Shown: positions 2,387 through 61,520 of the stretch, one piece after another
Layout of the letters: each line of letters starts with the position of its first letter
Position numbering within the stretch: the first letter of the stretch is position 1
NCBI RefSeq assembly: GCF_001543245.1
Contig: NZ_CP014163.1
Span: forward strand, 1,098,387-1,162,386
Source of the DNA: Aerococcus urinaehominis
GTDB lineage: Bacteria > Bacillota > Bacilli > Lactobacillales > Aerococcaceae
Direction: 5' to 3'
Length of the DNA: 64,000 nucleotides
Program-made: the position numbers and the translations under genes
The notes under the pieces: generated by a model
Database searches by the model: none
Told to the model about the DNA's origin: nothing
Seen by the model: only the letters and a program-made list of their open reading frames with translations

Positions 2387-4337
2387 ACTCTTCATAGGTT
2401 GCGAGGTCAAGCGCACGTGCTTCCCAAATCAACATTTTCTCTTCCTGGAGCTCTTTTTTCTCTTGTAAGCTGGTATTAAGCTTGTTGAGTTCATAGGAAT
2501 CATTGAAAATATCAGGATTAGTCATAGCGAGCTCAATCGCTGCAATTTCTTGGTCAAGCTGGTTGATGTCTGTTTCTAATTGGTCTACTTCTCTTTTGAG
2601 GCGGCGGATTTCTTTTTGGTTCTTTTTCTGAGCCTGGTAATCTATCTGGCCTTGGGAGCTGGTTGGTTTTTCAGCAGCTGTTTGCTGGTCTTGGGCCGCC
2701 TTGAGTCGGTCGCGCTCTTGGATTTCAGCTTTTTTCTGGCTATAGTAATCGTAGTCTCCTAGATAGAGGGTAGATCCTTCAGGAGAAATTTCTAAAACTT
2801 GGGTAGCAATGCGGTTGATAAAGTAGCGGTCATGGCTGACAAAAATCAAGCTACCGTTGTATTCAATCAAAGCATTTTCCAGAACTTCCTTGGAATCGAT
2901 ATCCAGGTGGTTGGTCGGCTCATCTAGGACTAAAAAATTATCGTGGTCTAAGGCTAACTTAGCTAGTTCTAACCGAGCTTTTTCACCCCCACTGAGGTTA
3001 GTTACAGATTTGTTAACATCATCGCCAGTAAATAGGAAGGAACCCAAAATAGTGCGAATATCTTGCTCACGCATCTGGGGGTGGGCATCCCAAAGTTCAT
3101 GGAGCACATCTTTTTTAGAGTGGCGATTACCTAACTCTTGGTCATAGTAGCCTAGGCTAACTCCAGTCCCATATTCGATATGACCAGCTAGGGCGGGGAT
3201 TTCCTTGATTAGGGTTTTAAGCAGGGTAGATTTACCGACCCCGTTAGGGCCAACCACAGCAATGGCTTCTTGCTTGCGTAGGTCCAAGTTGATATTTTGA
3301 GCCAAGATTTCTTGGTCATAACCTATCGCTAAGTCCTCAGCAATCACAACGATATTACCTGATTCCTTGTCAGCGACAAATTGGATGCGGGCCGACCGGT
3401 CATCGGCCTGAGGCTTACTCAAACGGGTCATCTTTTCTAATTGCTTGCGACGAGACTGGGCCATTTTAGTTGTTGACGCGCGAACAAGGTTTCTTTGGAC
3501 ATAATCTTCTAAACGGGCAATCTCAGCTTGTTGCTTGTCATAGGCTTTTTGCGCCAGAGCTAGCCGTTGGGATTTTTCCTGGAGATAGAAGCTGTAGTTG
3601 CCGGCATAATGATAGCTTTTTCCTTGGGTCATTTCATAGGTTTCATTGGTGACACTATCTAAGAAGTAGCGGTCGTGACTAACAATGAGTAGGGCTCCTG
3701 GATACTTGGGTAGGTATGCCTCTAACCAGGTGAGGGTATCGATATCCAAGTGGTTGGTCGGCTCATCGAGAATTAAGAGGTCTTTTTTCTCTAAAAGTAA
3801 TTTAGCCAAGGCTAAGCGGGTTCGTTGCCCGCCTGAGAGGTGGGCAACGGGTTTATCGTAGTCGGCTTGGTCAAATTGAAAACCTGCTAATACCATCTTG
3901 ATTTCAGATTCATAACCGTATGCATTATGTCGGTTGAGGTCTTCTTGCAGGCGGTCGTATTGGGCCAGGGCTTCTTGATAACGGTCTGGATCAGCCATAA
4001 TTTCTGGGTCGGCCAGTAGATTAGCACTTTGTTCAGCTTGGTCTAGTAACTTAAGGACTGGATCAAAAACAGCCAACATTTCGCCATAAATGGTCCGGTC
4101 AGAGTCGACAGCTGAATGCTGGTCCAGGTAGCCAATTGTTAATCCCTTGGCTTTGGATATACTGCCTGCATCGGGCTCTTCTAAGCCTGTTAGCATTTTA
4201 AGTAGGGTAGATTTACCGCTACCATTGCGGCCAACTAGAGCAATCCGACTCTTATCCTGGATTGTAATGTTGACATCTTCAAAAAGGGCTAAGCCGGCAA
4301 AGCGCCGAGCTAGTTGAGAACCTTGTAAAATAATCAT
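2385..4337 (-). CDS. ydiF: ABC-F family ATPase, YdiF-like
   Basis: 650 residues with two ABC cassettes and no membrane segment, the hallmark of ABC-F proteins, which act on the ribosome. Cassette 1 has Walker A GRNGSGKST near 37-45, signature LSGGQRTRLALAK and Walker B LLILDEPTNHLDI. Cassette 2 has GPNGVGKST, LSGGEKARLELAK and LVLDEPTNHLDID. A linker with charged helices (the P-site tRNA interaction motif region) lies between them. A C-terminal coiled coil covers roughly 545-640 (EIRRLKREVDQLETDINQL). Both length and position, next to tsaD and rex, match Bacillus YdiF. No antibiotic-resistance subtype can be assigned from sequence reading. Confidence 0.9.
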   Translation of the reverse strand: MIILQGSQLARRFAGLALFEDVNITIQDKSRIALVGRNGSGKSTLLKMLTGLEEPDAGSISKAKGLTIGYLDQHSAVDSDRTIYGEMLAVFDPVLKLLDQAEQSANLLADPEIMADPDRYQEALAQYDRLQEDLNRHNAYGYESEIKMVLAGFQFDQADYDKPVAHLSGGQRTRLALAKLLLEKKDLLILDEPTNHLDIDTLTWLEAYLPKYPGALLIVSHDRYFLDSVTNETYEMTQGKSYHYAGNYSFYLQEKSQRLALAQKAYDKQQAEIARLEDYVQRNLVRASTTKMAQSRRKQLEKMTRLSKPQADDRSARIQFVADKESGNIVVIAEDLAIGYDQEILAQNINLDLRKQEAIAVVGPNGVGKSTLLKTLIKEIPALAGHIEYGTGVSLGYYDQELGNRHSKKDVLHELWDAHPQMREQDIRTILGSFLFTGDDVNKSVTNLSGGEKARLELAKLALDHDNFLVLDEPTNHLDIDSKEVLENALIEYNGSLIFVSHDRYFINRIATQVLEISPEGSTLYLGDYDYYSQKKAEIQERDRLKAAQDQQTAAEKPTSSQGQIDYQAQKKNQKEIRRLKREVDQLETDINQLDQEIAAIELAMTNPDIFNDSYELNKLNTSLQEKKELQEEKMLIWEARALDLATYEE

Positions 4338-5134: not shown

Positions 5135-5149
5135 TGTTTTAAGCGGAAA

Positions 5150-5407
5150 AAGAGCCTGGGGCATATGCCCCGGGCTCTTGCTATTATACGAAGATTAGCA
5201 GCTTAGTTGGGCTCCAGCATAGCATACTATATCCGTACGCATTGGAAATGCTACGGCTACAGCAAAGAAGCTGAACTAAGGTCGTTTCACTAGGCTGGCG
5301 CAATATCTTTCAGATATTGGTCTGCCTAGCTCCAACGATTCAGTTCAGGGCGCTTCTTGTCGCACCCTTTAGTTGTTTTCAGTTCTAAGCGTCATCTCTC
5401 GCACCCT
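5150..5407 (-). repeat. Structured 3'-UTR repeat, copy A (behind ydiK)
   Basis: Fills the gap between convergent rex and ydiK. Read on the minus strand it starts AAGGGTGCGAGAG right behind the ydiK stop. It contains a collapsed module (about 5368-5406), then a full module (about 5201-5367) and a conserved linker holding TTCGTATAATAG. It ends in the hairpin AAGAGCCCGGGGCAT/ATGCCCCAGGCTCTT (5150-5179) followed by T residues. The full module is about 97 percent identical to that in copy B at 23102-23270. On the plus strand the same hairpin lies behind rex and could help terminate it. I do not recognise a named family. Confidence 0.8.
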
Positions 5408-8558: not shown

Positions 8559-10043
8559 TTAATATCTTTGGTTCATTTTTCCTTCTATGTGACCCAAGAA
8601 CTTAGACAGGCTAAAGGTCATGATAAAGTAAATCAGCATAGAAATTGTCAGCGGTACTAGACCTTGGTAGGTCAGACTAGTAACCGCCCGGGTTTGGAAG
8701 GTTAGTTCAGCAATACCAATGGTGGAGACAATAGAAGTTTCTTTAATTAAAGAGATAAACTCGTTGCCTAAAGCAGGCCAAATGGCTCTTAAGGATTGTG
8801 GAAAAACCACCTTTTGCATGGTCGGCCAATAGCCTAAACCAAGTGATCGGGCTGCTTCCGTCTGGCCAGAATCAACAGCATTAATGCCGCCCCGGATAAC
8901 CTCACAGATATAGGCAGCTGAATTTAGTGACACAGCGATGAGACCGGCTGTTAACGCTGACAGATTAAAAATAGCACCTAGGCCCAAGAAAGCGAAGAGC
9001 ACTTGGACCATGAGTGGCGTACCCCGGATGAACTCTACATAGATAGTGGCAGGAAGTTGTAGCCAGGGAAAATCCGATAAGCGCATCAGTGCCAGCAGGC
9101 TACCTAAAATAATACCGGCTAGCATGGCGACTAGGGAAATCAACAAGGTCATCTTGATGCCGTCCCAGAAGTAGGGCCAGTAAGCCAGCCAAGAATCACC
9201 CTGTTCAGCCTCGATTAGGTCATAGGCGTCTTGAATCCAGTTATCAACTTGGTCGGTGGCCAAGGCCTCTTCGATGGTTTGGTCTATAGCTGCTAAGAGG
9301 TCAGCTTGGTTGTTAGCAATCAAGAAAGATTTACCCGATTCGCCCACATCCAGCTGGCTAGCCACGGTAGTCAGGTCATCTTGCTGGGCAGCATAGGCAC
9401 CGGCAACAATTTCATCCATGAGGACGCCATCAACCTGGCCAGCTTGGAGAGCAGAAATTAGATCAGTAAAGGACTTCATACTAGTTAATTGAACATTTTT
9501 GATATGGTCCTTGGCAAAATTTTCTTGGATAGTGCCAGCATAGACCCCCAGGGTTAATTGCCCATTATCAAAGGCATGATAGTCGGTGATGGTCTCTTGG
9601 TCTTGTTGGCGGATAACAAAGGATTGGTCTTCCACAACATAGGGAATGGAGAAATCGCCTGATTTTTCCCGTTCTTCCGTAGCAGTTAGGCCAGCAGCAG
9701 CGATGTCGATAGTGCCGGTTTCAAGGGCTGGAATCAAAGAGTCAAAGTCCATATCAATGACTTCTAATTCTACGCCTAGCTTGTCAGCAATGGCTTGGGA
9801 GAGAGAAACATCGAGACCAACCACCTTATTTTGACCATCCTCTAGAATAGTAAATTCATATGGGGGATAACCTGAAGTTGTCCCCACCCGGAGCACACCG
9901 CGGTCTTTAATCTCCTGGAGGGCATTGTGGGCTGGATCTTGTTGGCTCGTCTGTGCATGGACACTAGGGTTAGATAGGGCTAACTGGCCAAGACATAGGC
10001 AGGCTAGGATGAGGATGGAAAAGGTTCTTTTAAATAGCGACAT
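8559..10043 (-). CDS. Amino-acid ABC transporter, substrate-binding protein fused to permease (copy 1)
   Basis: 494 residues from the ATG at 10043, which has AAAGGAG 7 bases upstream. A signal peptide (about 1-31, ending SVHAQ) is followed by a family-3 substrate-binding domain. This shows YPPYEF, the carboxylate-binding Arg in TATEERE and the amino-group Asp in LMDEIV, all typical for alpha-amino acids. From about 280 on, a HisM/GlnP-type permease carries the EAA loop EAARSLGLGYWPTMQKVVFPQSLR. No ATPase is encoded nearby, so it must borrow one. A T-box with an Arg CGC specifier controls it, which predicts arginine, citrulline or a related substrate. Confidence 0.88.
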   Translation of the reverse strand: MSLFKRTFSILILACLCLGQLALSNPSVHAQTSQQDPAHNALQEIKDRGVLRVGTTSGYPPYEFTILEDGQNKVVGLDVSLSQAIADKLGVELEVIDMDFDSLIPALETGTIDIAAAGLTATEEREKSGDFSIPYVVEDQSFVIRQQDQETITDYHAFDNGQLTLGVYAGTIQENFAKDHIKNVQLTSMKSFTDLISALQAGQVDGVLMDEIVAGAYAAQQDDLTTVASQLDVGESGKSFLIANNQADLLAAIDQTIEEALATDQVDNWIQDAYDLIEAEQGDSWLAYWPYFWDGIKMTLLISLVAMLAGIILGSLLALMRLSDFPWLQLPATIYVEFIRGTPLMVQVLFAFLGLGAIFNLSALTAGLIAVSLNSAAYICEVIRGGINAVDSGQTEAARSLGLGYWPTMQKVVFPQSLRAIWPALGNEFISLIKETSIVSTIGIAELTFQTRAVTSLTYQGLVPLTISMLIYFIMTFSLSKFLGHIEGKMNQRY

Positions 10044-10073: not shown

Positions 10074-10281
10074 AAGACCCCCACCTCTAAGAGGCGGGGG
10101 TCCACGGTACCACTCTTTTTCATAGTAAACACTATACTCAAACTGATAACGCTAGTGGGCGAACTTGGCTACTAGATTCACCAAATTATCCAAGCAAGGC
10201 GGTTCATAAAAGGACTAGGGAAGCTTCCACCAAATCTTCCTCGCTAGGCTAGTTAGCTTTTACTACTCTTTGCTTCATCGA
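10074..10281 (-). promoter_or_regulatory. T-box riboswitch, specifier CGC (Arg), before transporter copy 1
   Basis: Minus-strand leader. The Stem I start GAAGCAAAGAGTAGT ends near 10279. The specifier loop 3' side is GAAC-CGC-C with CGC at 10199-10201, flanked by the base-stem strand TTGCTT. The T-box sequence AAGAGTGGTACCGTGG is at 10102-10117. The terminator GACCCCCACCTC / GAGGCGGGGGTC is at 10076-10102. The UGGU of the T-box pairs with an ACCA tRNA end, so the predicted ligand is uncharged tRNA-Arg with A73. Starvation for arginine would allow read-through into the transporter gene. Between the start codon and the promoter this leader fills the gap. Confidence 0.93.
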
Positions 10282-10300
10282 CAAGTATAAAGTTTGTATT

Positions 10301-11238: not shown

Positions 11239-11265
11239 TAATGCAATCTTAATATTTATAAAGTC

Positions 11266-11489
11266 TATGAAGCAAAGAGTAGTTAATGGCGCTGGTTTAG
11301 CGAGAGGTGTTGGTGGAAGGCCTCCTGGTAAAATTAATGAACCGCATTGCTTAGATGGTTAGCTGAAATCTTTTAGGTTAACCCGCTGATAGCGTTACGC
11401 AAATGAGATGATTGGTTAATTAGTTTAACCTATCAAGTAGAGTGGTATCGTGGATTAGTCCGCCTCTTAACAAGAGGCGGACTTTTTTT
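11266..11489 (+). promoter_or_regulatory. T-box riboswitch, specifier CGC (Arg), before transporter copy 2-argH
   Basis: Stem I opens with ATGAAGCAAAGAGTAG (11268 on), whose AAGCAA pairs with TTGCTT at 11347-11352. The specifier loop 3' side is GAAC-CGC-A with CGC at 11343-11345. The T-box sequence AGAGTGGTATCGTGG is at 11439-11453. The terminator TCCGCCTCTT / AAGAGGCGGA plus T7 is at about 11458-11489. The predicted ligand is tRNA-Arg reading CGC, with an A at position 73 because of UGGU. It occupies most of the gap between ddaH and the transporter gene. Confidence 0.95.
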
Positions 11490-11518: not shown

Positions 11519-12997
11519 ATGGTGAAGTTAAAGAAGATTATTATTTGGTTAGCCCTAGTGGCAACGGTGGTACAGGGAGTATTTTTGGCTAGCCGACCTG
11601 TTCAAGCCCAGGAAAACAACTTATTAGCTGAAATTAAAGACCGGGGTAGCCTGCGTTATGGGACAGCACCTGGTTATGCACCTTATGAGTTCACGGTGTT
11701 AGAAAATGGTGAAAACAAGGTAGTCGGTCTAGATATTTTCCTGGGCCAGGCTATTGCCGATGAATTAGGTGTCCAGTTAGAAATTGTACCCATGGAGTTT
11801 GATTCTCTGATTCCGGCCTTAGAGTCTGGATCGATTGATATGATTGGGTCAGGCCTAAGCGCAACAGAGGAACGGAAAAAGTCCGGTGATTTTTCTATCC
11901 CCTATGTCAAAGAGCCTCAAGCCATTGTTATTCGTAAGGGTGAAGAGGAACAAATCTCAGACTATCAGGCTTTTAATCAAAAGCATTTAAAAATGGGTGT
12001 TATGGTTGGCACCTTGCAAGAAAATTTGGTTAAAACCTATATGCCTGAGGCCGAAATGGTAGTACTCCGGTCTTGGGCTGACTTAATTTCATCTCTCCAG
12101 GCTGGCAATATCGATGGCGTCCTTATGGATACTTCGGTATCAGGTGCCTATGTTGCCGAACATGATAATTTGGCTGCCGTGGCTTCTGGCATAGAAGATG
12201 AAGATACCCTAGTTGGCGTTTCCTTGATGACAAAAAAAGACCAATCTGACTTAGTCGCGGTCATGGACCAAGTAATTGGTGATAGTCTGGCTTCTGGACA
12301 AATTGATCAGTGGCTAGAAGATGCTTATCAATTGATTCGTGACAACCAGGAAAACACCTGGCTAGCCTATGCGCCTTATTTCTGGGATGGATTAAAGATG
12401 ACCCTCTTAGTTTCGGCAGTCTCTGTGCTGGCCGGCTCTATTTTAGGTGTCGGCCTGGCTCTAGCCCGGCTCTCTCAATTAAAAATCTTACAGGGCTTGG
12501 CAAGTGCCTATGTTGCCTTTATTCGAGGGACGCCACTGATGGTACAAGTTCTTTTTGCTTTTTTAGGTCTAGGTGGCCTATTTGGTTGGTCACCGCTTGT
12601 GGCGGGACTAATCGCAATTTCTCTCAATGCGGGGGCCTATATTTGCGAAATTATTAGAGGTGGCATTAATGGAGTGGATGCTGGCCAGGCAGAATCAGCC
12701 CGGTCCTTGGGTTTAGGTTATTGGCCGACCATGAAAAAGGTGGTATTCCCGCAATCCTTAAGAGCAATTTGGCCGGCCCTGGCTAATGAGTTTATTACTT
12801 TGATTAAAGAATCATCCTTAGTTTCAACTATCGGTATTGCGGAGTTGACCTTCCAAACCCGGGCGGTTACCAGTTTGACTTACCAGGGGATTATTCCCTT
12901 ACTAATCGCTATGGTAATTTATTTTATCCTAACCTTTACCTTAGGGCGTCTAGTAGCGCTTTTAGAGAAGCGAGATCAGAGTAAGTACCGGGCTTAA
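11519..12997 (+). CDS. Amino-acid ABC transporter, substrate-binding protein fused to permease (copy 2)
   Basis: 492 residues from ATG 11519, preferred over ATG 11510 because AAAGGA (11506-11511) is 7 bases away. A signal peptide ends near residue 32 (SRPVQAQ). The binding domain has YAPYEF, the Arg in SATEERKK and the Asp in LMDTSV. The permease domain has the EAA loop ESARSLGLGYWPTMKKVVFPQSLR. It is very similar to copy 1, and both lie in the same island in opposite directions, which points to gene duplication. It is preceded by an Arg T-box and followed by argH 70 bases on, so uptake and argininosuccinate lyase are probably co-expressed. No ATPase partner is encoded here. Confidence 0.88.
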   Translation: MVKLKKIIIWLALVATVVQGVFLASRPVQAQENNLLAEIKDRGSLRYGTAPGYAPYEFTVLENGENKVVGLDIFLGQAIADELGVQLEIVPMEFDSLIPALESGSIDMIGSGLSATEERKKSGDFSIPYVKEPQAIVIRKGEEEQISDYQAFNQKHLKMGVMVGTLQENLVKTYMPEAEMVVLRSWADLISSLQAGNIDGVLMDTSVSGAYVAEHDNLAAVASGIEDEDTLVGVSLMTKKDQSDLVAVMDQVIGDSLASGQIDQWLEDAYQLIRDNQENTWLAYAPYFWDGLKMTLLVSAVSVLAGSILGVGLALARLSQLKILQGLASAYVAFIRGTPLMVQVLFAFLGLGGLFGWSPLVAGLIAISLNAGAYICEIIRGGINGVDAGQAESARSLGLGYWPTMKKVVFPQSLRAIWPALANEFITLIKESSLVSTIGIAELTFQTRAVTSLTYQGIIPLLIAMVIYFILTFTLGRLVALLEKRDQSKYRA

Positions 12998-14503: not shown

Positions 14504-14522
14504 CAGACATATAAATATTGAA

Positions 14523-14744
14523 CATCTATGAAGCAAAGAGTAGCAGGCGTCAACTCGATTAGCGAGGTAAGGACTGGTGAGAGCTTACCCAGAGCGTTTG
14601 TGAACTGCATTGTGGAGATGGTCCGGTCAAATCATAGCCGGATTCGCAGAAATGCGTTAAAATTTTCGAGATTATAGGCCTAGTGTCTATAAACAAGAGT
14701 GGTATCGTGGGAAGAACCCGCCTCTTATTGAGGGGGTTCTTTTT
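14523..14744 (+). promoter_or_regulatory. T-box riboswitch before argG, specifier position reads TGC
   Basis: Stem I starts CATCTATGAAGCAAAGAGTA. The specifier loop 3' side is GAAC-TGC-A with TGC at 14606-14608, aligned with CGC in the two other T-boxes of the island. The T-box sequence AAGAGTGGTATCGTGG is at 14695-14710. The terminator GAACCCGCCTC / GAGGGGGTTC plus T5 is at 14714-14744. The UGGU expects tRNA with A73, which does not fit tRNA-Cys (U73 in bacteria). The ligand is therefore probably still tRNA-Arg, with a wobble in the first codon position. The base stem is also degenerate compared with the others (GCAA/TTGT only). Confidence 0.9.
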
Positions 14745-17515: not shown

Positions 17516-17687
17516 GAGGGTGAGAGACTTGGCATTCAGGAATGAATCATTGGGAGGAGTTAGGCCAATATCTGCAAGTTATTGAAACTAATTTCTGAAG
17601 TTACTTCAGTCCTGCCAAAGCGAACCCGACTACACTGCTAACTTCGTATCATAACGAGAGCCTGGGACTTATGCCCCAGGCTTTTTT
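17516..17687 (+). repeat. Structured 3'-UTR repeat, copy C (behind transporter copy 3)
   Basis: Starts GAGGGTGAGAGACTTGGC 11 bases behind the stop codon. The body has outer arms GGCATTCAGGA / TCCTGCC and an apical stem CAATATC / TTATTG. A conserved block, CCCGACTACACTGCTAAC followed by TTCGTATCAT, is next. It ends in the hairpin AGCCTGGG (17659-17666) / CCCAGGCT (17675-17682) plus six T residues, so it doubles as terminator of the argG operon. The remaining 150 bases up to the next gene are AT-rich, with only a weak promoter. Confidence 0.8.
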
Positions 17688-17775
17688 AAATTTACTAATA
17701 TTTTAGCTTAGTCAGTGGTAAACTAGCTTGTCTCTTTTTAATCCAAGTATCACAACTAATCCCACCCTAAAAAGC

Positions 17776-22212: not shown

Positions 22213-23040
22213 ATGTCTAAACAAGCGGAAATTATTGAAGCCCTGAAGGTCGCACCGACCATTAATCCTGGCCAAGAGGTTAGGCGGTCAATCGATTTTT
22301 TAAAGGCATATATTAAGTCGGTTCCTGGTATAAAGAGTCTCGTGCTGGGCATTTCCGGTGGTCAGGACTCTACCTTAGCGGGTAAATTATCACAGATGGC
22401 TATTAGCGAACTCCGCCAGGAAACAGGGGATGCTAGCTATCAATTCATTGCTGTCCGCCTCCCCTATGGCCAGCAAGTGGACGCCCAGGATGCCCGGGAT
22501 GCGGTTGCCTTTATCCAGGCTGATCAAGATTTTGAAGTCAATATCAAGCCGGCGGTTGATAGTCAGGTTGCTTCTTTAGAGGCAGCCGGTCTATCAGTTT
22601 CCGATTTTAACAAGGGGAATATCAAGGCCCGCCAACGGATGGTGAGTCAGTTTGCCATTGCGGGAGAGTGCCACGGTTTGGTAGTTGGATCTGATCATGC
22701 TGCCGAAGCAGTCACTGGATTTTATACCAAATTTGGTGATGGGGCTGCTGATATTATGCCTTTGTGGCGTTTAAACAAGCGTCAGGGTAAAGAAATGCTG
22801 ATTTATCTTAACTGCCCAGCCCACTTGTATGAAAAGATACCGATTGCCGACTTAGAAGAGGAAAAACCCCAACAAGCTGATGAAGATGCCCTAGGGGTTA
22901 GTTACCAAGCCATCGATGATTATTTAGAAGGTCAAGAAGTGGCAGACAAGGATCGAGACCGCATTGAACACCTTTATCGCATTAGCGAGCACAAGCGCCA
23001 GCTACCGGTTAACATTTATATGGACTGGTGGCAATATTAA
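22213..23040 (+). CDS. nadE: NadE, NH3-dependent NAD+ synthetase
   Basis: 275 residues, single-domain ammonia-dependent type with no nitrilase domain. It amidates nicotinic acid adenine dinucleotide to NAD+ in the cytoplasm using ATP and ammonia. The PP-loop is [15 protein letters not shown], and the deamido-NAD and ammonia site region is [30 protein letters not shown] is 6 bases before the ATG and overlaps the pncB 3' end. The C-terminal [13 protein letters not shown] is intact. Behind it lies repeat copy B, whose head hairpin on this strand could also act as terminator. Confidence 0.96.
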
Positions 23041-23051
23041 ACTATTAAGAA

Positions 23052-23628
23052 AAGAGCCTGGGACAATGAGTCTCAGGCTCTTGCATTTATAGGAATATTG
23101 GCAGCATAGTTGGGCTCCAGCATAGCATACTATATCCGTGCGCATTGGAAATGCTACGGCTACAGCAAAGAAGCTGAACTAAAGTCGTTTCACTAGGCTG
23201 ACGCAATATCTTTCAGATATTGGTCTGCCTAGCTCCAACGATTCAGTTCAGGGCGCTTCTTGTCGCACCCTTAGTCGGGTTCGTTTTGGCAGACCAGGCG
23301 TCCTTTCGCAGAATTCAAGACAATATCTGACGATATTGCTTGTCTTCTGCTCCAAGGATCCTGGTCTAAGCGCCAAAGTTCACACCCTGTTTAGTCGGGT
23401 TCGCTTTGGCAGACCAGGCGTCCTTTCGCAGAATTCAAGACAATATCTGACGATATTGCTTGTCTTCTGCTCCAAGGATCCTGGTCTAAGCGCCAACGCT
23501 CGCACCATGTTTAGTTGGGTTCGGTCTGGCAGAACTGAAGCCCTTTCATAAAACCCGACACCATATCTGCGATATTGGTCGTCTTTTATTCTAAGGCCCC
23601 AGTTCTAAGGGCCAGCCCTCATACTCTC
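23052..23628 (-). repeat. Structured 3'-UTR repeat, copy B, tandemly expanded (behind yigZ)
   Basis: Fills almost the whole 589-base gap between convergent nadE and yigZ. On the minus strand it begins TGAGAGTATGAGGG at the yigZ stop. It runs through module 4 (23511-23628), two near-identical 120-bp modules (23391-23510 and 23271-23390, about six differences), module 1 (about 23102-23270, with a ~45-base insertion as in copy A), then the head hairpin AAGAGCCTG.../...CAGGCTCTT (23052-23082) and a T tract. Each module is a nested hairpin: in the 120-bp modules AGACCAGG/CCTGGTCT, GCAGA/TCTGC and CAATATC/GATATTG. An apparent 71-residue frame inside is only the repeat read twice. Confidence 0.88.
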
Positions 23629-23629
23629 A

Positions 23630-24268
23630 TTATTTATAAGGAATATCGACATCGACATAAACTTGGTCACCAATTTTAAAATTTGCTTGATCATTAGTTA
23701 GATCAACAAGTTCAGCTTGGACCGTGTCGACTTGACTACTTGGAATACCTAAATGATAGGTCATCTCTTCTAGATATGTGGTATCTAGGAGGATGTAGGG
23801 GGACTGTTCTACCCAGTAGGTCATATTACCAGTCAGGTTGTAGGGAATGGTAACAGCTAGCTCGGTTTGTAACTGGCGTTCAACTAGCCCCACCGCCTTG
23901 AGCCCTTCACTGACAGCGGTACTATAAGCGCGGATAAGCCCGCCAGCGCCCAGTTTGGTGCCGCCAAAATAACGGGTGACGATTGTAATGACATTGTGGA
24001 GATCATTTTGTTTGAGTACTTCCAACATCGGTACGCCCGCTGTCCCACTGGGTTCACCATCATCTAAGGCCCGCTGTATTTCATGATTGTCGCCAATTTG
24101 GTAGGCGACACAGTTGTGGGTGGCCTTGTAATGTTCTTTATTTATCTTAGCTATAAAGTCCTTGGCCTCTTCCTCGGAAAAGACCCGGGCCAGGTGGCAG
24201 ATGAACTGCGATCCCCGTACATCAATTTCATGTTGGCCTGGGCCTTTAATCGTTTTATATTCAATCAA
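23630..24268 (-). CDS. yigZ: YigZ/IMPACT family protein
   Basis: 212 residues. The N-terminal UPF0029/IMPACT domain (about 1-115) contains SQFICHLARV, THNCVAYQIG, DDGEPSGTAGVPML and TRYFGGTKLGAGGLIRAYS, all family hallmarks. A C-terminal DUF1949 domain (about 140-205) has a ferredoxin-like fold. The eukaryotic relative IMPACT binds Gcn1; a bacterial role is not settled, with ribosome-related and peptidase proposals. Firmicutes usually carry it (YvyE) beside degV and comFA, as here, though on the opposite strand. The ATG at 24268 has AGGAGGAGAC upstream. Its 3' untranslated region would be repeat copy B. Confidence 0.92.
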   Translation of the reverse strand: MIEYKTIKGPGQHEIDVRGSQFICHLARVFSEEEAKDFIAKINKEHYKATHNCVAYQIGDNHEIQRALDDGEPSGTAGVPMLEVLKQNDLHNVITIVTRYFGGTKLGAGGLIRAYSTAVSEGLKAVGLVERQLQTELAVTIPYNLTGNMTYWVEQSPYILLDTTYLEEMTYHLGIPSSQVDTVQAELVDLTNDQANFKIGDQVYVDVDIPYK

Positions 24269-60174: not shown

Positions 60175-61359
60175 TTGGCAATTTATAAGTTAAAAAAAGC
60201 GGCTAGCCAGGCTTTAAGGGCTGGTCGTCAATTGTTAAAGCCTGAGGATTTTAGTCAGTTGGCTGACTACCAGGATGGTGATTTGGTTGATCTAGTCGAC
60301 CACCGGGGCCAATTTCTGGGTCGGGCCTATTTGTCTCAGCAAAATAAAGGGTTGGGTTGGGTTTTTAGTAAGCAGCCAGGTCAAAATATGAACCAAGCTT
60401 TCTTTACCCATCTTTTTGACCAGGCCAAGCAGAAACGGGCAGCACTCTTTGCTGACCCCTTGACTACAGCCTTTAGAGTTTTTAATGGTGATGGGGACGG
60501 CTTAGGTGGTCTATCTATCGATTATTATGCTGGTTACTTGCTGATTCAATGGTATTCTACTGGAATTTACAGCTATCGTGACCAGATTTTAGCGGCTCTG
60601 GCGGCAGTTTATCCTCAGGCTCGCGCTGTGATTGGTAAAAACCGCTTTGACCAGGCTGGTCTAGCCATCAGTGAAGTATTGGTTGGCCAGGAGCCCGCCA
60701 GTGATTTGCTAGTTTTGGAGAATGGGATTAATTATCTTGTGAACTTAAACGAAGGTTGGATGACTGGGATTTTCTTGGACCAAAGAGATGTCAGACTGTT
60801 TATTCAGACAGAATTGGCGGCCGGACGGCGTCTATTGAATACTTTTTCTTATACTGGTGCTTTTGGCGTGGCAGCGGCTATGGGCGGGGCAATTACGACG
60901 ACAAATGTCGATGTAGCCAACCGGTCCCAAGCCCTAACTGAGTCTCAGTACCAAGCAAATGGACTAGATTTAGGAGCCATGCGGGTTTATACCATGGATG
61001 TCTTTTCATACTTTGATTATGCAGCTAAACACGGTGAAAGCTACGATATTATTGTGATGGATCCGCCAAGCTTTGCTCGCCATAAAAAAGGTACCTTTAA
61101 GGCAACCAGGGATTACCGTCAGTTGGTCAGTGAGGCTCTGACAATTTTAGCACCGCAAGGCTATCTGGTCTGCTCGACCAATGCTAGCAACTATCGACCA
61201 GAGGACTTTTTGGCTGACATCAAGGCTGGCGCAAAAGATCAAGCCACTAAAATTAGTCTATTACAAAGCTTTAGCCTACCAAGTGATTTTCCAGTACCAG
61301 CCAGTAGCCCGGAGAGCGATTATTTGAAGGTTAATGTATTTAAGAAAGAGAGGGTGTGA
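60175..61359 (+). CDS. rlmI: RlmI-like class I rRNA methyltransferase
   Basis: 394 residues from a TTG with AAAGGAG 8 bases upstream. The N-terminal PUA domain (about 1-75) binds RNA; the middle RlmI/EEHEP region and the C-terminal Rossmann methyltransferase follow with GIFLDQRDVR, SAM loop NTFSYTGAFGVAAAMGGA and catalytic VMDPPSFARHKKG. E. coli RlmI makes m5C1962 in 23S rRNA; site specificity here is inferred. The final codons AGG GTG TGA lie within the first bases of repeat copy D (GAGAGGGTGTGAGA), so the very C terminus may have been reshaped by the repeat. Confidence 0.85.
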   Translation: MAIYKLKKAASQALRAGRQLLKPEDFSQLADYQDGDLVDLVDHRGQFLGRAYLSQQNKGLGWVFSKQPGQNMNQAFFTHLFDQAKQKRAALFADPLTTAFRVFNGDGDGLGGLSIDYYAGYLLIQWYSTGIYSYRDQILAALAAVYPQARAVIGKNRFDQAGLAISEVLVGQEPASDLLVLENGINYLVNLNEGWMTGIFLDQRDVRLFIQTELAAGRRLLNTFSYTGAFGVAAAMGGAITTTNVDVANRSQALTESQYQANGLDLGAMRVYTMDVFSYFDYAAKHGESYDIIVMDPPSFARHKKGTFKATRDYRQLVSEALTILAPQGYLVCSTNASNYRPEDFLADIKAGAKDQATKISLLQSFSLPSDFPVPASSPESDYLKVNVFKKERV

Positions 61360-61520
61360 GACTCGGCGATCAGGCATAGACCACTGGAAGGAAGCTGACC
61401 AACAGCTGTAAGCTATTGAGTCAGGTTCCTGAAGTGGCGACCTGCCTGCTGAGTCGATCCCAACTATGCTGATAACATTCGTATAATAGTAGGAGCCTGG
61501 GACTTATGAGCCAGGCTTTG
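61348..61520 (+). repeat. Structured 3'-UTR repeat, copy D (behind the rlmI-like gene)
   Basis: Begins GAGAGGGTGTGAGACTCGGC, overlapping the stop codon (61357-61359). Nested arms on this strand: TCAGGC/GCCTGC, CCACTGGAAGGAA/TTCCTGAAGTGG (imperfect), CTGAC/GTCAG and an apical CCAACAGCTG/TTATTG-like stem. A conserved block CCCAACTATGCTGATAAC and TTCGTATAATAG follows, then the hairpin AGCCTGG (61494-61500) / CCAGGCT (61511-61517). The T run is short (CTTTGG), so this is the weakest terminator of the four. Confidence 0.78.

Follow-up and report, generated by a model that had tools for sequence, protein, structure and literature searches.

Structured, protein-less repeats at gene ends in Aerococcus and other Bacilli: a candidate superfamily of mobile 3′-end elements

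Enterococci carry a short repeat, EFAR, of reportedly about 170 bp, which is said to fold into an L-shaped double stem-loop and to insert into stem-loops, most of the target sequence being lost on integration. The available portion of PMC3733652 lists EFAR as a MITE of enterococci and cites De Gregorio et al. (2009, FEMS Microbiol Lett 292:7-12). For E. faecalis, the accessible part of the description of Efa-1 gives a 163 nt model with 65 copies (18 of them complete) that are intergenic and form paired adjacent stem-loops (Cozzuto et al., 2008; PMC2267715). The targets of another small repeat, YPAL, span or adjoin dyad symmetry, according to the part of PMC2229807 at hand. In this study, we followed up structured elements behind stop codons in a stretch of Aerococcus urinaehominis DNA of 64,000 nucleotides (the window, to which plain coordinates refer; the own genome is the whole genome of this organism, 1,831,400 bases).

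An earlier note on this DNA had described four related elements at gene ends, and direct reading found all four in place, at the 5150, 17516, 23052 and 61348 loci, to which a covariance model also confines the units within the window. The array behind YigZ, on the minus strand, has four rod units, at 23512-23626 (unit 1; 97.1 bits), 23392-23507 (unit 2; 122.9 bits), 23272-23387 (unit 3; 123.6 bits and 96% identical to unit 2 over 120 nt) and 23107-23270 (unit 4; model match 23152-23270, 65.9 bits), the 3′ arm of the last ending in CCCAACTA at 23107 and being broken by a nested hairpin of ~45 nt at about 23125-23170. A linker and a palindromic hairpin with a T run follow at 23048-23106 (minus strand; hairpin at about 23054-23080, by reading), and the other end of this hairpin faces the NadE stop (23040); a simple terminator scan of 22900-23800 reported a terminator-like site on the plus strand and none on the minus strand. 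The other loci hold one unit each. At the locus of the gene that the earlier note named ydiK, here ydiK-like, a truncated unit directly behind the stop (5369-5406, minus strand, by eye) precedes a rod at 5204-5367 (minus; model match 5249-5367, 60.9 bits; 3′ arm end CCCAACTA at 5204), whose 3′ arm is likewise broken by the nested hairpin (about 5220-5265), and then the linker TTCGTATAATAG with the terminator hairpin (5147-5203, minus, by reading and self-comparison). The copy at 5173-5369 is 95% identical to unit 4 of the YigZ array over 197 nt. On the plus strand, a rod behind an amino-acid ABC permease gene (17518-17632, 94.1 bits) is followed by the linker TTCGTATCATAA and a terminator hairpin (17633-17688, by reading), and a rod at an RlmI-like gene (61352-61466, 90.2 bits), the 5′ end of which supplies the TGA of the gene (61357-61359), is followed by the linker TTCGTATAATAG and a terminator hairpin (61467-61520, by reading and by fold). 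The linker ahead of the terminator, for example at 61478-61489, contains TATAAT, a −10-like hexamer directly before the hairpin.

The conserved 3′ block and the hairpin of the GAGCC(T/C)G(G/A)G type that had been described are in all four elements, and the host genes were, as claimed, functionally unrelated among those tested. The earlier note placed each element within 0-12 nt of its stop; measured from the stop to GGGTG, the distance is 2 nt at the ydiK-like gene (counted by reading, truncated unit first), 3 nt at YigZ, 13 nt at the permease gene and −8 nt at the RlmI-like gene. Three of the four elements (5150, 23052 and 61348) sit between convergent genes, so that any orientation there is sense to one neighbour.

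The family is much larger than these loci. BLAST with the 61348-61520 copy gave 49 matches in the own genome, itself included, the next best at 1.3e-44, and with further queries the ~115-nt unit was seen to repeat head to tail in arrays. Covariance models searched through the own genome and relatives, as the earlier note had proposed, recovered a large family; the own genome alone has 52 arrays with a total of 91 units, each a bulged rod hairpin of ~115 nt (150 of 755 candidates scored). A complete copy of about 172 nt consists of a rod whose internal loops are conserved, followed by a short linker that contains TTCGTATAATAG and by a palindromic terminator; the hairpin, GAGCCTGGG, is a predicted terminator and may mark the transcript end. 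The linker and terminator module of the family was found in 35 of the 52 arrays by local alignment against shuffles, a few of the scores being near the cut, and both parts were also seen by eye downstream of rods in another family of this order (for example L233). A copied, structured 3′-end module with a common terminator is supported; that each copy brings its own terminator applies to these 35 arrays and fails for the other 17, several of which end, by eye, in a 3′-truncated unit and then an unrelated terminator-like hairpin. Arrays are clustered in the own genome (gap-variance permutation P 0.001), at 690-830 kb and at 1.57-1.82 Mb, with array-free gaps of 258 and 281 kb, and the 1.57-1.82 Mb cluster holds 13 of the 17 that have no family terminator.

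The nested ~45-nt hairpin (GTAGCATT...AATGCGTACGGATATAGTATGC) that splits the 3′ arm of some rods also lies near 75 kb, 619 kb, 752 kb and 1374 kb of the own genome. Its exact pattern was found at 13 of 304 loci, which represent five distinct places; the copy at 23125 is one base off and not among them. At 1374 kb (L051, L224), two adjacent partial matches occur with no rod detected, suggesting that the nested hairpin may be a second, independent small repeat.

Comparative evidence for the fold is strong. For the own genome we used an alignment (A1) of 41 full units, made with MAFFT and without the model, 42 having been extracted by pattern and one of 98 nt excluded. RNAalifold folded it into a single rod of 38 pairs, 25 with compensatory changes, and covariation reached 0.433 against 0.168 in shuffled and at most 0.089 in slid alignments. 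Order-wide, 72 units (66 distinct) reached 0.800, compared with 0.200 for shuffled and no more than 0.124 for slid alignments, with both-side changes at all 38 pairs, in an alignment that was fitted to the model and so leans towards structure. Five single units fold 6.1 to 8.5 standard deviations below their shuffles (z −6.1 to −8.5), the 173-nt copy at 61348 folds as a rod plus a terminator hairpin, and the ends of the rod pair by 4 bp. G-U cells outnumber A-C cells in every set, at 47:19 (A1), 147:47 (85 own units), 136:74 (multi-genus) and 109:45 (order-wide). Folding of both DNA strands as a cruciform would give equal numbers, and thus the sense strand of the element appears to be under folding constraint. 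Units located antisense (assigned by 12 loci) have the same bias, with 34 G-U and 10 A-C cells, so that the constraint seems to follow the element rather than transcription of the host gene, with the caveat that the bias could be inherited from master copies. Distant copies have the blocks GUUUAG, CACUGGA/GAAGUG and CUGCC in common, by eye and among matches of a kind that the models favour. A kink-turn at the P1/P2 junction was considered by eye and is not claimed, because own units fit one only if a 2-nt bulge is allowed and the tandem GA of other lineages looks symmetric.

Closeness to stop codons held up genome-wide. Of the 52 own arrays, 33 begin −10 to +30 nt from a sense-gene stop; the chance expectation is 11.6%, taken from random intergenic positions and strands within the window (4,101 nt) with genes from a simple caller. 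In other genomes the same range holds 34 of 72 loci, which are best-scoring hits after exclusion of loci truncated at contig ends and of repeats of one array, and at some of which hidden upstream units make the distance too long. The further claim that the elements are always sense to the gene in front of them did not survive, since 12 of the 52 own arrays and 17 of the 72 loci elsewhere (by the caller) lie antisense to the genes on both sides. For the own arrays, the caller gave 20 sense between genes of the same direction, 15 convergent, 13 antisense to both, 3 divergent and 1 unclear; with two corrected by hand, the numbers are 21, 16, 12, 2 and 1. The corrections concern array 718994, which starts 5 nt behind a 250-aa ORF, and the ydiK copy of the window, which the caller had put among the 13 but which is sense on direct reading and belongs to a gene of 63 codons, under the size limit of the caller. 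No credible sense gene lies just upstream of the remaining twelve antisense arrays among ORFs listed down to 45 codons. The loci elsewhere (n=72) comprise 25 sense between same-direction genes, 22 convergent, 17 antisense to both, 5 divergent and 3 unclear. Between same-direction genes, sense to antisense is thus 21:12 in the own genome (20:13 uncorrected) and 25:17 in the others. These counts indicate that contact with a stop is general, that strict sense orientation is not, and that divergent gaps are rarely used. In five antisense copies measured by eye, the hairpin of the family terminator ends roughly 0-24 nt from the stop of the neighbour.

Sense elements start at a median of 5 nt from the stop (n=33, selected by the −10 to +30 range), closer than native terminator-like hairpins, for which the median is 20 nt (quartiles 15 and 34; n=41). 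The stop is TAA in 28 of the 33 sense host genes and in 84 of 142 other genes (P 0.0015). The junction inside arrays, GAC-TAA-AACA-GGGTG, resembles the junction with the gene, TAA-AACA-GGGTG, and an A stands at −1 in all 33 internal units and in 32 of the 33 first ones (66 units examined out of 91). Because the copies share ancestry, binomial values at the level of cells overstate the significance. Some copies lie in operon-like gaps directly before the apparent next ribosome-binding site (L178, L185, L192, L200).

Filled and empty sites were seen between relatives. Segments of the own genome were compared with loci of Aerococcus sp. HMSC062A02, A. suis and the metagenome genome UBA6277, giving 44 reciprocal-best gene pairs, and the 3′ gaps of ten pairs were compared. 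Three of these ten sites are empty in the own genome and filled elsewhere. In two of them (window 20582 versus L116 and 7795 versus L098) the element lies between the stop and a terminator-like hairpin; in the third (L114) it is antisense and a long way downstream of the stop. An element or a remnant is present in both species at the NadE gap (L116), at 692 kb (L096) and at 772 kb (L118); the element at L110 is that of the convergent gene. At L209 an array follows a gene end that by eye resembles the ydiK-like one, which suggests that some sites are common to genomes. One genome, G194, has nine equal-scoring matches, and the three that were read are identical. Another short tandem pattern, GCAAGTTGCGAATGG-like, occupies the gap behind a gene at L099 (about 3990-4156) of Aerococcus sp. 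HMSC062A02; behind the counterpart of this gene in the own genome it is missing.

The family is widespread and patchy. Within the family, the covariance model R1 matched at least 28 of 60 genomes (9 of 21 genera), and within the order at least 43 of 295 (20 of 75 genera, six families), the own genome included in both. In the class, R3 matched at least 37 of 398 genomes, of which 33 belong to five families beyond the order. All are lower bounds owing to strict filters and to the scoring of at most 61, 12 and 9 candidates per genome in the family, order and class searches. Copies from three of these five families were inspected (f11, f17, f18); the matches in the other two, f40 and f47, are weaker. 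Besides the 91 units of the own genome, high copy numbers were found in two relatives (97 and 140), in another family (114) and elsewhere (58), and one genome of the same genus, G005 (99% complete), gave no match with 12 of 458 candidates scored. A close sequence pattern hit 57 stretches of named genomes, 56 from Aerococcus and one from a record called Streptococcus sp. 263_SSPC (L108). This record has the repeat at the same coordinates as G073 C46, which is filed in the Aerococcus family, so that its name is probably wrong. Sequence-specific searches gave no match in viral contigs for the patterns of two lineages and none in phages by BLAST for one lineage; in plasmid records, a search specific in the same way matched only Aerococcus tenax CP127381, besides a 34-nt terminator match in S. 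salivarius NZ_CP018188. CP127381 (L258) is a 591-kb circular A. tenax "plasmid" with rpsF, ssb, rpsR, rplI and dnaB, and by this gene content it looks like a chromosome part or a chromid.

We think it rather probable that these repeats form a superfamily of miniature, protein-less, non-autonomous mobile elements across Bacilli, of the EFAR type, that land between stop codon and terminator. In such a scheme, a factor recognising the folded sense strand, as RNA or single-stranded DNA, would move copies into the A-rich spacer that separates the stop codon, mostly TAA, from the terminator. The 3′ end of the element, CTAA-A, would recreate the landing site, and we propose that further copies stack in tandem for this reason. 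The outcome for the host gene would be a stable structured mRNA tail and a terminator able to serve both strands. The patchy occurrence, with matches in 28 of 60 family genomes and none in G005, would count for mobility. Against it, tandem junctions could come from unequal recombination, compensatory changes over such distances could equally mean a cellular function, and near-absence from phage, viral and plasmid records, as far as sequence-specific searches tell, is odd for a mobile element; the antisense filled site far behind its stop (L114) also fits poorly. We know of no transposase, reverse transcriptase or autonomous copy for these elements, the search for a mover having covered Y1 transposases. 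A more far-reaching version, in which class-wide stop-targeting elements of a new mobile type are copied from a folded transcript or captured as sense single-stranded DNA, land flush behind TAA and stack themselves through CTAA, seems unlikely to us; if true, it would make this a self-stacking 3′-UTR element of a new mobile type.

The main rival to mobility is a selected function in the 3′-UTR, whereby the rod binds a conserved protein or blocks exonucleases, is maintained by selection on the host gene and is spread by recombination. Very strong compensatory change (0.800 order-wide), loops (GUUUAG, CACUGGA/GAAGUG) conserved to the eye in distant families, the excess of G-U over A-C on the sense strand and the copies before the apparent next ribosome-binding site of operon-like gaps would all suit such an RNA. 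It accords less well with the lack of a match in G005 among the 12 of 458 candidates scored, with orthologous genes that differ in the presence of the element, with host genes unrelated among those tested, and with antisense copies that keep the bias (34:10), and as an explanation in its own right we find it doubtful. Mobility and a selected function can both hold, if the element is tolerated for replacing or reinforcing the end of a gene.

Two further explanations fare worse. REP-like elements mobilised by an IS200/IS605-type Y1 transposase (RAYT) would account for hairpin DNA in high copy number and for stop contact, GTAG REPs often supplying a TAG stop in the available text of PMC3733652, and Y1 transposase genes are found in the many-copy genomes G042, G067 and G041. 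However, PF01797 is absent from seven of ten high-copy genomes (G000, G001, G002, G010, G014, G211 and G164, each with a dozen copies or more, the own genome among them) and present in three of eight genomes without an R1 match (G020, G043 and G054, the first two with internal stops), which makes a Y1 transposase unlikely as the mover. The 115-nt rod is moreover far longer than a REP of 20-40 nt. On length and on the pattern of Y1 transposases across genomes, we rejected identity with REP/RAYT, and this explanation is largely refuted and very improbable. Ordinary terminators and chance hairpins, with similar 3′ ends evolved independently, might be expected from stem-loops that frequently lie near stop codons in low-GC Firmicutes (PMC1590033, in the part available), but 95% identity over 197 nt between two loci, 91 model matches in the own genome and covariation far above shuffles refute this, and we give it practically no weight. 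Non-autonomous mobile elements remain our preferred reading. One structured repeat, absent from Rfam 15, stands at dozens of gene ends in some Bacilli; the family would tie isolated Enterococcus reports to a class-wide one and provides covariance models for annotation. It also opens to testing how small hairpins find gene ends and multiply without an evident transposase, and whether they determine the 3′ ends and the stability of mRNAs across operons.

The earlier note had recognised no described family. No Rfam 15 family reached its gathering score over any element, in the window or at 20 loci of other genomes; the matches that did (T-box, THF, TPP, Ref66, rli28) all lie outside the elements, and weak matches to VrrA and rli42 fall on the terminator hairpin and were not accepted as identity. 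The T-box leaders of the window, at 10087-10287 (minus), 11258-11470 (plus) and 14519-14728 (plus), adjoin an inverted duplication (8612-9042 / 12508-12938, 74%) in a region where argH and a gene for an amino-acid ABC permease also lie. The kind of element, by contrast, is known, as homologous repeats of E. faecalis fit Efa-1/EFAR. Genome G311 is E. faecalis-like, being the sole genome of 395 over the cut-off for RF02637 (E. faecalis sRNA; 450 bits). De novo self-comparison of 400 kb of it yielded a repeat about 175-183 nt long, with a single copy of 226 nt; five copies are longer and one is partial, and one of them forms two hairpins when folded (z −9.7). R3, whose 72 source sequences include none from G311 or E. 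faecalis, recovered five of these six repeats in 403,415 bases of G311, in register with the rod (E 4.6e-8 to 3.3e-4), and these were its only hits below E 0.01, a further one at E 0.28 lying elsewhere. R2 gave no match across the whole of G311 at the genome-wide cut-off, and E 0.0012 and 3.4e-4 on stretches. On this recovery and the description of Efa-1, we treat the window elements as homologues of the G311 repeats and, very likely, of Efa-1/EFAR, with which the G311 repeats agree in species, size and double hairpin.

It is useful to set the Aerococcus elements beside the known families. For the Aerococcus or the class-wide family itself, we recognised no description in the titles and abstract openings that the literature search covered, most subscription papers lying outside it. 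High-copy extragenic palindromes near gene ends, some supplying stops, are a likeness to REP, BIME and REPIN elements (PMC3733652, available portion); however, the rod is about three to five times longer than a REP, the arrays run head to tail in contrast to the alternating layout of BIMEs (PMC2817692, available portion), and by eye no REP-type terminal GTAG or CGTC tag was seen on the 115-nt rod. Like the MITEs RUP, NEMIS/Correia and YPAL, as the accessible text of PMC2229807 presents them, the elements are short, non-coding, structured and near genes; they differ in that no parent insertion sequence is known for them and by eye no clear target-site duplication was seen in their flanks. With regard to the target loss ascribed to EFAR, two filled sites (L116 and L098) keep a terminator-like hairpin behind the element. 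As far as the available descriptions go, Efa-1 resembles the Aerococcus elements most closely in being dispersed and intergenic, with tens of copies, a length of 163 versus 173 nt and two adjacent stem-loops, whereas the Aerococcus family differs from Efa-1/EFAR in its primary sequence, its regular tandem arrays of ~120-nt units and its class-wide spread.
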